Source of the DNA: Roseibacillus sp.
GTDB lineage: Bacteria > Verrucomicrobiota > Verrucomicrobiia > Verrucomicrobiales > Akkermansiaceae
DNA length: 56,220 nt
Assembly (NCBI GenBank): GCA_002715825.1
Contig: PBAI01000025.1
Span: forward strand, 1-56,220
Direction of reading: 5' to 3'
Part shown: positions 32,496 through 37,633 of the stretch, piece after piece
Numbering within the stretch: the first letter of the stretch is position 1
Layout: every line of letters begins with the position of its first letter
Notes under the pieces: generated by a model
Seen by the model: only the letters and a program-made list of their open reading frames with translations
Database searches by the model: none
What the model was told of the DNA's origin: nothing
Program-made: the position numbers and the translations under genes

Positions 32496-33854
32496 ATGAA
32501 GAAAGTTATTCTTCCCTCATTCCTTACCCTTGCCCTCGCTCCTCTCCTCCTTGCTGCTCCTCCCAATGTCGTAATCTTTCTGACCGACGATCAAGGCACG
32601 CTCGACGCGAACTGCTACGGGTCAAAAGATCTCTACACCCCGGCCATGGACAGCCTCGCTGAGACCGGGGTGCGCTTCACCCAAGCCTACAGCCACACCG
32701 TCTGCTGTCCGGCGCGAGCCCTCTTGATGACCGGGCGCCATCCACAGCGCTCCGGCGTAGTCCACTGGACTCAGGGAGATCGTAAAGGCAGTGACAGCCA
32801 GAACCGAAATATGGCTGCTTCTGAAATTACGATCGCGGAGGTTCTCAAGAAGGCGGGTTACGCCACTGCCATTTTCGGAAAATGGCATCTTGGAGCCAGG
32901 GAAGGACACGGCCCTCTCGCTCAGGGTTTCGATCACCACTTTGGGCACCTCGGAGGATTCATCGATAACTACAATCACTTTTTCCTGCACGGGCAGGGCT
33001 TCCATGACCTCTACGAGGACAACGTCGAAATTTTCAAGAGTTATGCCTACTTCCCGGATCTCATGACCGAGCGGGCTCTCGACTACATCGATGAGAACAA
33101 AGATGGTCCCTTCCTGCTCTACGCCGCTTTCAACATTCCTCACTACCCCGAACAGCATGACAAAAAGTTTGAAGCGCGTTACAGGAATCTTCCCATGCCA
33201 CGCCAGTCCTACGCCCGCATGATTTCCACCACAGATGACCGCATGTTGCAAATTCTCAACAAACTGGAGGAACACAAACTCCGGGATAACACCATTGTCA
33301 TCTTCATGAGCGACAATGGCCACTCCACCGAGGATGGTGCGCGCACTCGGAAGAATCACAAGAGTGGCCTGGAGGAGGGCCATTATTACCACGCCTTCGG
33401 AGGAGGCGGCAACACCGGCAAGTGGCGCGGATCCAAGGGCTCGTATTACGAGGGCGGACTTCGAGTTCCGGCGATCATCAGCTATCCCGCGAAGCTTCCA
33501 CGTGGCGTGGTTCGGGATCAGGCCATCACCGCGGCAGACTGGTTCCCGACCATCCTCGATCTCTGCGACCTTGGGGAGCCGCCGAAAGAGCTGGACGGGC
33601 ACTCGGTTCTTCCGCTGATTCGCGAGCCGGATTCTCCCTCTCGTCATCGCACCCTGCACTGGGCATGGGGAAATGGATGGGCCGTGCGCGAGGGGAGCTG
33701 GAAGCTGATCGGCAATGGCGGGAAGCCCACCTTTCTCGGCAACGTAGACGACGAAAAGCCAGAATTCATCAACTATCTTACTACCCGGCCCGAGCTGGTT
33801 CAGCAGCTTCTCCAAAAGCATTCCGACTGGATGGAGAGGACCCTCCCAAGATAA
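32496..33854 (+). CDS. Sulfatase
   Basis: 'PNVVIFLTDDQGTLDANCYG', CxPxR motif 'CCPAR' in 'HTVCCPARALLMTGRHPQRSG', 'FGKWHLG'. Confidence 0.95.
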   Translation: MKKVILPSFLTLALAPLLLAAPPNVVIFLTDDQGTLDANCYGSKDLYTPAMDSLAETGVRFTQAYSHTVCCPARALLMTGRHPQRSGVVHWTQGDRKGSDSQNRNMAASEITIAEVLKKAGYATAIFGKWHLGAREGHGPLAQGFDHHFGHLGGFIDNYNHFFLHGQGFHDLYEDNVEIFKSYAYFPDLMTERALDYIDENKDGPFLLYAAFNIPHYPEQHDKKFEARYRNLPMPRQSYARMISTTDDRMLQILNKLEEHKLRDNTIVIFMSDNGHSTEDGARTRKNHKSGLEEGHYYHAFGGGGNTGKWRGSKGSYYEGGLRVPAIISYPAKLPRGVVRDQAITAADWFPTILDLCDLGEPPKELDGHSVLPLIREPDSPSRHRTLHWAWGNGWAVREGSWKLIGNGGKPTFLGNVDDEKPEFINYLTTRPELVQQLLQKHSDWMERTLPR

Positions 33855-34054: not shown

Positions 34055-37000
34055 ATGTCGAAAGACACGTGCAGTAATTTACCACAAAAGGGTAGATCTC
34101 TCTCGCAAAGCCTCCAAGAACCCAGCCCACCCGTTCCCGATTTAAAGCAAATGAACTCCGAAAATCCAGTAATCAAAATTGCGGGTCTTGTTTCCCTTGG
34201 GATCGCTCTGGGGATCTCCCTTTACCTCGCCGGGAACTCCCTGGGGGGGGCCTCAGTAGCGGGGTGCTCAGGTGAGGGAAGCGGATGTCACAACGTCCTG
34301 TCCAGTAAATGGGCATACATTCTTGGCGTGCCGGTCAGCCTGACAGGACTACCCATCTACGGCGCTCTCCTGTTTTTCTCAATTTTTCCATCCCGTCACT
34401 CCCAACTGTTGAAGGGCACCCTTTCCGTTCTTGTGGTAGGGGCAGCTCTCTGGTTCGCCGGGGTCCAGCTCCTGATTCTCAAGTCGTTCTGTCCATGGTG
34501 CTGCACCACCCATGGATTTGCAGTTGCCGGCACATTACTTTTAGCAGTTTCCTCTCGTCAAGAGCGCGCGCCTCACAGGCTCATACTCTCAACCTCCTTC
34601 GCTCTCCCAGCTCTTGGCGGATTAATCTTTCTGCAGTTTCTGAGCTCCGCTCCGGACCAGTCGAAGCAGGCTTCTCTCGGCGATGCTGGAGCCCTTAAGG
34701 ATGAAAATAACTTCATCTCCCTGCATGGAGGTGAATTTCTGCTCAACCCTGAGGACTTTCCAGTGATTGGTTCACCTCGAGCCCGCCATACGGTCGTCGC
34801 ACTGGGAGATTACACTTGCGGGTTCTGCCGTAAGCTGCACGGACAGTTACAGCAGATTGTTTCATCTTACCCGGAAGGCGAGCTTGCAGTCATTGAACTC
34901 CCGGTCGCGCGCGACGCGAAAGCTGCTGAAATCCAGAGACTCATGCTCTCCCTCTGGAAATCTCACCCGGAAACAAAAAAGACCCTTGATACCCGGATCC
35001 ATGAACGCCGGCTCTCAATCGAGCCGGACACCATTCGGACAGCCGCTGAAGAACTTGTCGGGGCAGAGGCCGTGCGCACCGCACTTGCTGACCACGCCGC
35101 GTGGGCTGAGCAGCAGATCGAAGTTGCCTCCCAGGTTCTCAAAGCCAACAGCAAAATTACTGGTGCCCCCCACCTCCCCCAGTTGATTGCCGGTGAGGAA
35201 GTCAATATCGGAGCCTCAAAGGATTTGGAAACTTACACCGAACTTTTTGCTCGTAACTATGATCTGGCGAGTCCCGATCTAAATGCCCTCGCTCGATTCA
35301 GCAATTCTCCGAGAAATCCTGAGCCTGCTCTTGCGATTGCAACCGTGCAGGCGAATACGGAGATACTGTGGCCTACTCGAGAGCGGCAACTGGAACTTAC
35401 GCCTCGTAGCCCTGGTATTCTCTGGCCTGTCTCCAGCCTTCTCGCTCCCACGCAATTGGGGCGAAAAAAGCGGAACAAGGACAACCCACAGGTAGCAGCA
35501 GGCTACTTTGGCTGGATCCTGCGAAACTTCGAGATGCCCGGCGAAATGCTACTTGCAGACCCAGCGGCCAACCCAGATGGCGATGCCAGCCGAAACGCGC
35601 TGGAATACTGGTGCAGATTGGATCCCAAACAAAGAGACAACTCCCCGGGACTGATCCATCGCGGCAGAAATGGCAACATGGTCTACTCCCTTGAGATGCG
35701 GGACGACGACCCGGCAATCGGCGGCGTATTCCAATTCTCTGACGACCTCCATTTTACGGATACCGAGACCGTTGCCTTCTCTGAGGCAAAACCTATTGAC
35801 TCGGATCCAATGGACGGTCTTCAAACCTGGATGGCCACCGACCCTGAAGATAAACCTGGCCTCACTCGCTTCGCACGTGCAGCTCTCGAGATCGATTGGC
35901 CCTCTGATTCCGAATGCCTGCAGCAATGTGCCGCGGTCGCAGTCACCACCTGCCAGGGTGACCCCTCTCAGGTCCACGCCGTCTTTGAAGCCTGCATGGA
36001 CACGTGCTCCGGTGGTTGGTGTAACGAAATTTTTGATCCCGTCTGTGGATGCGATGGGCAAACCTACTCCAATGCCTGCGCAGCTGCTGAAGCCAACGCG
36101 AGCGTGGAATATCTTGGAGCCTGCGAGCAACCCGAGTGTTCCAGCAATGCCGACTGTGGTGATACTGAATACTGTTTCTCGCAGGAAGGCTGCGACACCC
36201 CAGGAACATGCCGGGAGAGACCCGTGTTCTGCACCCTTGAGTTCCAACCTGTCTGCGGGTGCGATGGAAACACTTACGGCAATGCCTGCGCCGCCGCAGC
36301 CGCAGGAGTCAATGTGGTCAGAGAAGGAGCCTGTTTGGCAGATGGCGGGTGCAACAGCAATGCCGACTGCAGCGATGCTGACTACTGCTTCTCCGAAGAG
36401 GGTTGCGATGTACCGGGAACCTGCCAGGAAAAACCCCAACTTTGCACCCGCGAATTCAACCCGGTCTGTGGCTGTGACGGTCGGACCTACGGGAACCCAT
36501 GCCTGGCGGCCTCTGCTGGAGTCAACGTGGTCAGCCAGGGAGCCTGCGTTGCAGAAGAACAATGCAATACCAACGCTGACTGCGATGAGGCCGATTACTG
36601 TTTTTCCGAGGAAGGATGCGACGCGCCGGGAACCTGCCGGACAAGACCGGAAATCTGTACCCTTGAAGCTCATCCGGTCTGTGGGTGTGACGGGCAAACC
36701 TACGGAAATGCATGCTTCGCCGCCGGCGCAGGGGTCAACATCGCCAGCGAGGGTGTCTGTGAGGTCGTCAACGAGTGCAATACCAACGCCGACTGCGACG
36801 ATGCCGATTACTGCTTCTCAGAGGAAGGCTGTGACGCCCCGGGAACCTGTCAGCCCAAGCCGGAGTTCTGCACCCGCGAATTCCGCCCGGTATGTGGCTG
36901 CGATGGAAGGACCTATGGAAATGCCTGTCAGGCAGCCGCAGCGGGAGTGAATGTCGTCAGTCAGGGAGCCTGCCCGGTTGAGGGCGAATGCAACACCAAC

Positions 37001-37633
37001 GCTGACTGCGGTGATGCCGATTACTGTTTCTCTGAGGAGGGCTGTGACACCCCTGGGACCTGCGAGGAAAAACCGGTGTTCTGCACGTTTGAATTCAATC
37101 CGGTCTGTGGGTGTGATGGCAACACCTACAGCAACCCATGCGTTGCTGCCTCGGCAGGAGTTAACGTGGTCAGCCAGGGAGCCTGCGTCGTGGAAGAGCC
37201 ATGCAATACAAACGCTGACTGCGACGATGCCGATTACTGCTTTTCCGAGGACGGGTGCGACGCACCGGGTATCTGCCAGACGCGACCGCAGATCTGCACC
37301 CGCGAATTCCGCCCCGTATGTGGCTGCGATGGGAGGACCTATGGAAATGCCTGTGAGGCAGCCGCAGCGGGAGTGAATGTTCGTCAGGAAGGCGCCTGTC
37401 TCAGCGAGGGTGAATGCACGAGTAACAACGACTGCCCTGGAAGTGAATACTGCCTCTTTACAAGAGGTTGCGGCGGTTCGGGATTCTGCCAATCACGCCC
37501 TGAATTCTGTCTTGCCGTGTGGGACCCTGTCTGTGGATGTGATGGAAGAACCTACGGAAATGCCTGTGAGGCAGCTGCGGCCGGTGTATCTGTTCTGAGA
37601 AGCGGAGTGTGCCTTCCAATCCGAGACCCTTAG
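34055..37633 (+). CDS. VKOR-like + DsbA-like thioredoxin + spacer + multi-Kazal fusion protein (start may be 34151)
   Basis: VKOR: 'AGCSGEGSGCHNVLSSKWAYILGVPVSLTGLPIYG...LKSFCPWC' in hydrophobic context. Trx/DsbA: 'VVALGDYTCGFCRKLHGQL'. Spacer: 'LLADPAANPDGDASRNALEYWCRLDP'. Then Kazal cores 'CTLEFQPVCGCDGNTYGNAC...' repeated. Confidence 0.92.
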   Translation: MSKDTCSNLPQKGRSLSQSLQEPSPPVPDLKQMNSENPVIKIAGLVSLGIALGISLYLAGNSLGGASVAGCSGEGSGCHNVLSSKWAYILGVPVSLTGLPIYGALLFFSIFPSRHSQLLKGTLSVLVVGAALWFAGVQLLILKSFCPWCCTTHGFAVAGTLLLAVSSRQERAPHRLILSTSFALPALGGLIFLQFLSSAPDQSKQASLGDAGALKDENNFISLHGGEFLLNPEDFPVIGSPRARHTVVALGDYTCGFCRKLHGQLQQIVSSYPEGELAVIELPVARDAKAAEIQRLMLSLWKSHPETKKTLDTRIHERRLSIEPDTIRTAAEELVGAEAVRTALADHAAWAEQQIEVASQVLKANSKITGAPHLPQLIAGEEVNIGASKDLETYTELFARNYDLASPDLNALARFSNSPRNPEPALAIATVQANTEILWPTRERQLELTPRSPGILWPVSSLLAPTQLGRKKRNKDNPQVAAGYFGWILRNFEMPGEMLLADPAANPDGDASRNALEYWCRLDPKQRDNSPGLIHRGRNGNMVYSLEMRDDDPAIGGVFQFSDDLHFTDTETVAFSEAKPIDSDPMDGLQTWMATDPEDKPGLTRFARAALEIDWPSDSECLQQCAAVAVTTCQGDPSQVHAVFEACMDTCSGGWCNEIFDPVCGCDGQTYSNACAAAEANASVEYLGACEQPECSSNADCGDTEYCFSQEGCDTPGTCRERPVFCTLEFQPVCGCDGNTYGNACAAAAAGVNVVREGACLADGGCNSNADCSDADYCFSEEGCDVPGTCQEKPQLCTREFNPVCGCDGRTYGNPCLAASAGVNVVSQGACVAEEQCNTNADCDEADYCFSEEGCDAPGTCRTRPEICTLEAHPVCGCDGQTYGNACFAAGAGVNIASEGVCEVVNECNTNADCDDADYCFSEEGCDAPGTCQPKPEFCTREFRPVCGCDGRTYGNACQAAAAGVNVVSQGACPVEGECNTNADCGDADYCFSEEGCDTPGTCEEKPVFCTFEFNPVCGCDGNTYSNPCVAASAGVNVVSQGACVVEEPCNTNADCDDADYCFSEDGCDAPGICQTRPQICTREFRPVCGCDGRTYGNACEAAAAGVNVRQEGACLSEGECTSNNDCPGSEYCLFTRGCGGSGFCQSRPEFCLAVWDPVCGCDGRTYGNACEAAAAGVSVLRSGVCLPIRDP
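36137..37628 (+). repeat. Seven tandem 213-bp (71-aa) Cys-rich/Kazal coding repeats
   Basis: Unit starts (first Cys codon) counted at 36137, 36350, 36563, 36776, 36989, 37202 and 37415, exactly 213 bp apart. Consensus CNTNADCxDADYCFSEEGCDxPGTCxxxPxxCTxEFxPVCGCDGxTYGNACxAAAAGVNVVSQGACxxEx. Confidence 0.95.

Follow-up and report, generated by a model that had tools for sequence, protein, structure and literature searches.

In a stretch of 56,220 nucleotides from the marine bacterium Roseibacillus sp. (family Akkermansiaceae, phylum Verrucomicrobiota; contig PBAI01000025.1 of assembly GCA_002715825.1, "the window" in what follows), a single gene encodes a membrane disulfide oxidase, composed of a VKOR and a DsbA-like domain, and on the same chain a C-terminal array of eight Kazal domains. 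This fusion of an enzyme with its disulfide-rich client is conserved in the genus; its parts are known, and their combination is apparently new and unreported. A second VKOR-Kazal fusion is present in a Heimdallarchaeal genome. In our opinion the chances are about even that the Roseibacillus protein is a dedicated self-oxidising envelope protein, in which the N-terminal oxidase forms, in cis, the disulfides of a tethered periplasmic multi-headed Kazal/follistatin-like array.

Findings

The open reading frame (ORF) runs over 1192 codons without interruption, and the first-pass annotation of this DNA, which had read in it a VKOR-like domain, a DsbA-like domain, an export-type spacer and a Kazal array in that order, is borne out by the ORF itself, Pfam, AlphaFold2 and Foldseek. 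The gene probably starts at the ATG at position 34151 and not at 34055, because the N-termini of the orthologues fall near Met33 of the listed ORF (e.g. MNMGSNNKTVRIAG) and residues 1-32 are not conserved. A Pfam profile search, a check of the kind suggested earlier, returned both VKOR (PF07884, residues 48-158, E=1.5e-14, 54.7 bits against a cut-off of 27.5) and eight stretches of Kazal_1 (PF00050, E=6e-49, 164 bits against a cut-off of 21, with every copy singly above it), as well as Thioredoxin_4 at residues 236-358 (E=2.9e-6). AlphaFold2 models helices at residues 38-195 and a DsbA-type domain at 204-402 (pLDDT mostly 80-94), a helical hairpin at 618-651 and Kazal folds in the C-terminal part, residues 415-619 being poorly modelled.

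The cysteines of the oxidase are as the annotation had described them (a C-x6-C loop formed by C71 and C78, FCPWC with C146 and C149, and CGFC with C255 and C258 in the DsbA domain), and AlphaFold2 and hydropathy place the four VKOR cysteines in a five-helix bundle. All six catalytic cysteines, together with the proline of the DsbA cis-Pro region, are invariant in 20 verrucomicrobial homologues. The domain after the VKOR is predicted to have a thioredoxin fold with a CXXC motif and a cis-Pro-region proline, its CGFC and LPQ being conserved and Foldseek leading to ScsC/DsbA proteins. None of the five hydrophobic helices lies past residue 205, and hydropathy of the fusion reveals, other than the VKOR helices, no hydrophobic export signal ahead of the array; this predicted topology supports the inner-membrane tether with a periplasmic remainder that had been proposed, and the DsbA domain and the array are predicted to lie on one common side of the membrane.

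Eighty of the 89 cysteines of the fusion belong to the array and six are catalytic. Seven units of 71 residues with ten cysteines each had been noticed at first; these are indeed present, but the Kazal domains total eight, the additional one coming first. Similarly, what had been taken for an export-type spacer of about 250 residues does have an export-type part, although it is actually a linker plus a domain at about 478-632. The P1 residue is R, L or F in six of the eight Kazals of the window and mostly R or L across the Roseibacillus units, the first Kazal always having Glu. The reactive loops (CTLE, CTRE, CTFE) have the ovomucoid layout, most of these units having Thr as the P2 and Glu as the P1' residue. 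An AlphaFold2 model of two units (pLDDT 91.7) has follistatin (FS) modules as its top match in the PDB (Foldseek E 1.7e-6), followed by rhodniin and single Kazals; its Kazal part matches ovomucoid and LDTI, with 36 residues superposing on the latter at 0.7 A.

Kazal_1 was detected in 12 of 15 Roseibacillus genomes, always on the fusion ORF save for one 36-residue fragment match in G010, so that, this fragment aside, the client is seen only on the oxidase chain in all 12 Kazal-positive genomes. Besides that of the window, full-length fusions are found in eight genomes (G001, G002, G003, G004, G008, G009, G010 and G013) and partial ones in three (G006, with masked bases; G007 and G011, at contig ends); the fusion is absent from G012 and G014, and in G005 only its VKOR end is present, at a contig edge. 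Full-length copies have 5 to 9 Kazals. Across 388 sampled genomes of the phylum, Kazal_1 occurs in the window's own genome only. The ratio of nonsynonymous to synonymous substitution rates (dN/dS) is about 0.1-0.3 for both halves in most comparisons within the genus, which indicates that both are under purifying selection, and most orthologous loci share their flanks (a sulfatase gene upstream, pntB/pntA and a Gfo/Idh gene downstream).

Verrucomicrobial VKOR-DsbA proteins form two clades, one of stand-alone proteins and one of C-terminally extended proteins. The former includes a 389-residue paralogue in the window's own genome (G000:C20:14159-15268), presumably its separate general oxidase; the initial suggestion that the fusion can do without a general Dsb system therefore finds no support, and oxidation in cis would be a dedicated extra. 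The latter comprises the Kazal fusions and proteins that end in Ig-like, DUF1573 or unknown regions. Thus L038 5460-7133 (+) and L032 6626-8647 (-) end in DUF1573 or Ig-like domains, and a 1022-residue VKOR-DsbA protein from another family of the order (G055; L031 5771-8839, -) has a C-terminal region of about 580 residues without a Pfam match. All fusion orthologues have CGFC at the DsbA motif (window 34817-34828), and the stand-alone paralogue has CISC/CSSC. The motif of DsbC is CGYC, which CGFC resembles, and by this analogy it is conceivable that the DsbA domain of the fusion also acts as an isomerase on the array.

A second fusion in a Heimdallarchaeal genome

GTDB genomes were scanned with the Kazal unit and the best 80 loci were analysed, so that more cases may exist; about 70 of these loci belong to taxa other than Roseibacillus. 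Among these roughly 70 loci, a VKOR within the Kazal ORF or within 5 kb of it was found in one only, CP070760.1 of Candidatus Heimdallarchaeota bin272. This ORF of 1444 residues encodes a Trx-like domain (CGTC), a VKOR (profile score of 32 bits, above the cut-off), a thioredoxin (CNFC), twelve ten-cysteine Kazal units, a Ser/Thr-rich stretch and a C-terminal hydrophobic segment, and it is that genome's sole VKOR above the cut-off and its sole Kazal protein. The evidence for a second fusion comes from one archaeal metagenome-assembled genome (MAG). Seven relatives have stand-alone Trx-VKOR genes with about 34-42% identity to the first 350 residues of the fusion, and no other VKOR-Kazal fusion was found among 228 genomes of the Heimdallarchaeal phylum. 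The stand-alone Asgard genes (L134-L140) bear GGCGC and CxxCTxSQ motifs.

In the VKOR tree, the archaeal fusion groups with Asgard sequences and the Roseibacillus fusion with Verrucomicrobiota, each with 100/100 support, and a common clade of both fusions is rejected by the approximately unbiased (AU) test (p = 1.7e-5); an earlier tree without the Asgard homologues, which the later one included, was indecisive (p=0.14). Because of this placement and of the rejection of a common clade, the phylogeny argues that the VKOR halves of the two fusions were recruited separately. In the Kazal-unit tree (67 columns) a shared and a separate origin of the Kazals both fit (p-AU 0.6), and the Heimdallarchaeal units are nearest to those of Planctomycetota. 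Both fusions have the oxidase machinery at the N-terminus and the client at the C-terminus.

Other searches gave no further case: among 20 long VKOR ORFs picked from sampled genomes (343 of the Planctomycetota group and 331 of the Myxococcota group), and at the VKOR loci of 6 genomes with Kazals, the Kazal core motif is present in no frame. A literature search, with most subscription journals outside its coverage, found no paper joining VKOR and Kazal in one protein.

Comparison with known systems

A C-terminal thioredoxin domain on VKOR is long established (PMC4555120), and a VKOR-DsbA fusion from Clostridium sp. complements an E. coli dsbA dsbB mutant (PMC12453122). The Roseibacillus protein shares with such fusions (Synechococcus VKOR, 3KP9/4NV5, and that of Clostridium) a four-cysteine VKOR, a fifth transmembrane (TM) helix and then a periplasmic CXXC domain of thioredoxin fold, but is about 790 residues longer owing to its linker, exported-protein domain, CX3C hairpin and eight Kazals. 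Myxococcota also have VKOR-DsbA joined to several more domains in a single chain (VKOR-DsbA-FGE_sulfatase-TlpA proteins of about 840-950 residues: L202 1667-4405, -; L209 1927-4554, -; L211, L212 and L198-L201), but there the partners are an FGE-like domain and a TlpA-type thioredoxin, without Kazal.

The ten-cysteine unit itself is shared with unfused multi-Kazal proteins of Myxococcota, Planctomycetota and Alphaproteobacteria (among the best 80 loci, up to about 60-64% identity over most of the unit). Its reactive-loop layout (C-T-L/R/F-E...P-V-C-G...D-G-x-T-Y-x-N-x-C) is that of the ovomucoid third domain and LDTI (classical and non-classical Kazal, respectively), whereas the Roseibacillus Kazals are in tandem and tethered to a membrane enzyme, and their inhibitory activity is putative. 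In the models, the whole unit resembles an FS module (FOLN + Kazal) as much as a plain Kazal: cysteine count and overall fold agree, but in the Kazal part the cysteines are placed differently, with an extra cysteine in CGC and the equivalent of Kazal C5 absent. TGF-beta-like ligands are not known in bacteria.

Interpretation

We would propose the following scenario. The VKOR helices would target the chain to the inner membrane, everything past TM5 being periplasmic; the DsbA domain, which should fold first since it is N-terminal, would oxidise the approximately 40 disulfides of the array in cis during its exit from the translocon; and electrons would pass from DsbA C255/C258 to C71/C78 and C146/C149 of VKOR and then to quinone. 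Once mature, the array would act as a tethered Kazal-type inhibitor with several heads of differing P1 specificity, Arg being directed at trypsin-like targets and Leu or Phe at chymotrypsin-, subtilisin- or elastase-like ones, and it would probably protect the envelope against competitors' or predators' proteases. For Roseibacillus, inhibition of serine proteases is plausible, because R, L or F stands at most P1 positions and the reactive loops are ovomucoid-like; for the archaeal array it is doubtful. The order of machinery first and client last in both lineages fits oxidation in cis during export.

Several observations weigh against this scenario. The genome has its stand-alone VKOR-DsbA, and oxidation in cis is thus not strictly needed; the other C-terminal domains of the extended VKOR-DsbA relatives are not Cys-rich; many bacteria have unfused Kazal arrays with no VKOR next to them, and of 14 such genomes 8 have no VKOR match at all; the archaeal P1 residues are solely D and T, unlike those of canonical trypsin/chymotrypsin inhibitors; and FS modules, which the ten-cysteine unit resembles, bind ligands rather than proteases. 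The last two points lead to the idea that the array consists of follistatin-type binding modules (for adhesion, ligand or metal binding, or envelope spacing) and not of inhibitors, which would still be compatible with oxidation in cis. The PDB matches of the two-unit model and the constant Glu of the first Kazal favour this idea as well, whereas the P1, P2 and P1' residues of most Roseibacillus units and the likeness to LDTI, an inhibitor of trypsin and tryptase (PDB trypsin complexes), do not, and we consider it rather unlikely, though the strongest of the alternatives. A little less probable still, in our view, is that the VKOR-DsbA half serves the periplasm as one more general oxidase, or is a mere anchor, and that the array is a passenger that any Dsb enzyme could oxidise, so that the fusion only co-localises the two. 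The paralogue and the unrelated passengers of the extended relatives are consistent with this, but the Kazals of the genus occur solely in cis with the fused oxidase, all catalytic residues are retained, and the same pairing in the same order arose separately in an archaeon whose sole VKOR above the cut-off is the fused one.

One could also imagine that a VKOR-DsbA clade tolerant of additions gained the exported domain and the Kazal array by neutral accretion, without any functional tie to oxidation; the varied C-terminal domains of the clade and the variable number of Kazals would be explained in this way. Selection on both halves, retention in most members of the genus and the second independent origin make it, we think, quite improbable. 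That the fusion is an artefact (an assembly join, a frameshift, or two proteins from internal starts) is hardly credible. The genome is indeed a draft MAG of 48 contigs, in which a long repeat could misguide assembly, but the same architecture is seen with syntenic flanks in assemblies of 11 further species, no frameshift or join appears in the orthologues, and an internal start would leave the array without an export signal, as judged by hydropathy. Orthologues, synteny and selection thus lead us to reject it, and the doubt raised at first, that the fusion might occur in no other genome, has been removed.

Self-oxidation of the array is, we infer, the best single explanation of the fusion. 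More tentatively, and with confidence short of even, we suggest that the two fusions represent a class of self-oxidising proteins that evolved twice, once in a bacterium and once in an Asgard archaeon; in such proteins a disulfide generator in the membrane would be linked covalently to a disulfide-rich client dedicated to it, on which it would act in cis during export. Disulfide oxidases are usually general and act in trans on many clients; here, enzyme and client share one chain. A conserved fusion of separate bacterial and archaeal origin would be a naturally occurring system in which to study how disulfides form during translocation, would show how a single oxidase copes with dozens of disulfides, and might open a route to the production of Cys-rich repeat proteins. 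The fusion also points to a system of marine Verrucomicrobiota, for protease inhibition or for binding, that has gone unreported.

Gene features and neighbourhood

Table 1. Features of the fusion gene and of its upstream neighbour (positions in the window; residues numbered from the first codon of the listed ORF).
Feature	Position	Strand	Basis or remark
Type I sulfatase gene, directly upstream	32496..33854	+	Pfam; synteny across the genus; gap 28-301 bp
Fusion ORF: VKOR, DsbA, linker/export-type domain, CX3C hairpin, 8 Kazal domains	34055..37633	+	ORF reading, Pfam, orthologues; stop 37631-37633
Probable true start codon, ATG (Met33)	34151..34153	+	Orthologue starts; residues 1-32 unconserved
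VKOR-like membrane domain, five predicted TM helices (residues 38-195), C71-x6-C78 and C146PWC149	34166..34639	+	Pfam, AlphaFold2, hydropathy, Foldseek to Synechococcus VKOR 4NV5
DsbA/ScsC-like thioredoxin domain (204-402), C255GFC258, conserved P375 in LPQ	34664..35260	+	Pfam Thioredoxin_4, AlphaFold2, Foldseek to ScsC / alpha-DsbA2
Variable linker with ILWP motifs (about 406-477)	35270..35485	+	Low pLDDT; dN/dS 0.15-0.53
Domain common C-terminally in exported verrucomicrobial proteins, NPDGD..RNALEY (about 478-632)	35486..35950	+	Sequence comparison
Twin-CX3C helical hairpin, C621-x3-C625 and C647-x3-C651 (about 617-652)	35903..36010	+	AlphaFold2 helices 618-630 and 637-651; Cys positions
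Kazal domain 1, C656-C690, P1 Glu	36020..36124	+	Profile match; placed after the CX3C hairpin
Seven ten-Cys FOLN/Kazal (follistatin-module-like) units (695-1186), P1 L, R, L, R, F, R, A	36137..37612	+	Profile matches, AlphaFold2, Foldseek

The dN/dS of the linker is above that of the flanking parts in most comparisons, and the exported-protein domain that follows it (xPDGDxxxNxLEY...) has no Pfam match. The gap between the sulfatase gene and the fusion gene is as short as 28-65 bp in some Roseibacillus species, and because of this short gap and of an adjacency kept across the genus, the two genes may be co-transcribed as one operon; no promoter or terminator signals above chance were found around the fusion gene. 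The fusion gene also appears to be a mosaic (window about 34700-36860), since around residue 216 third-codon identity to G001/G003, at first 0.55-0.85, jumps to near 1.0 and falls again near residue 936, and G013 and G004 switch near residue 456; these jumps along the gene suggest recombination between species.

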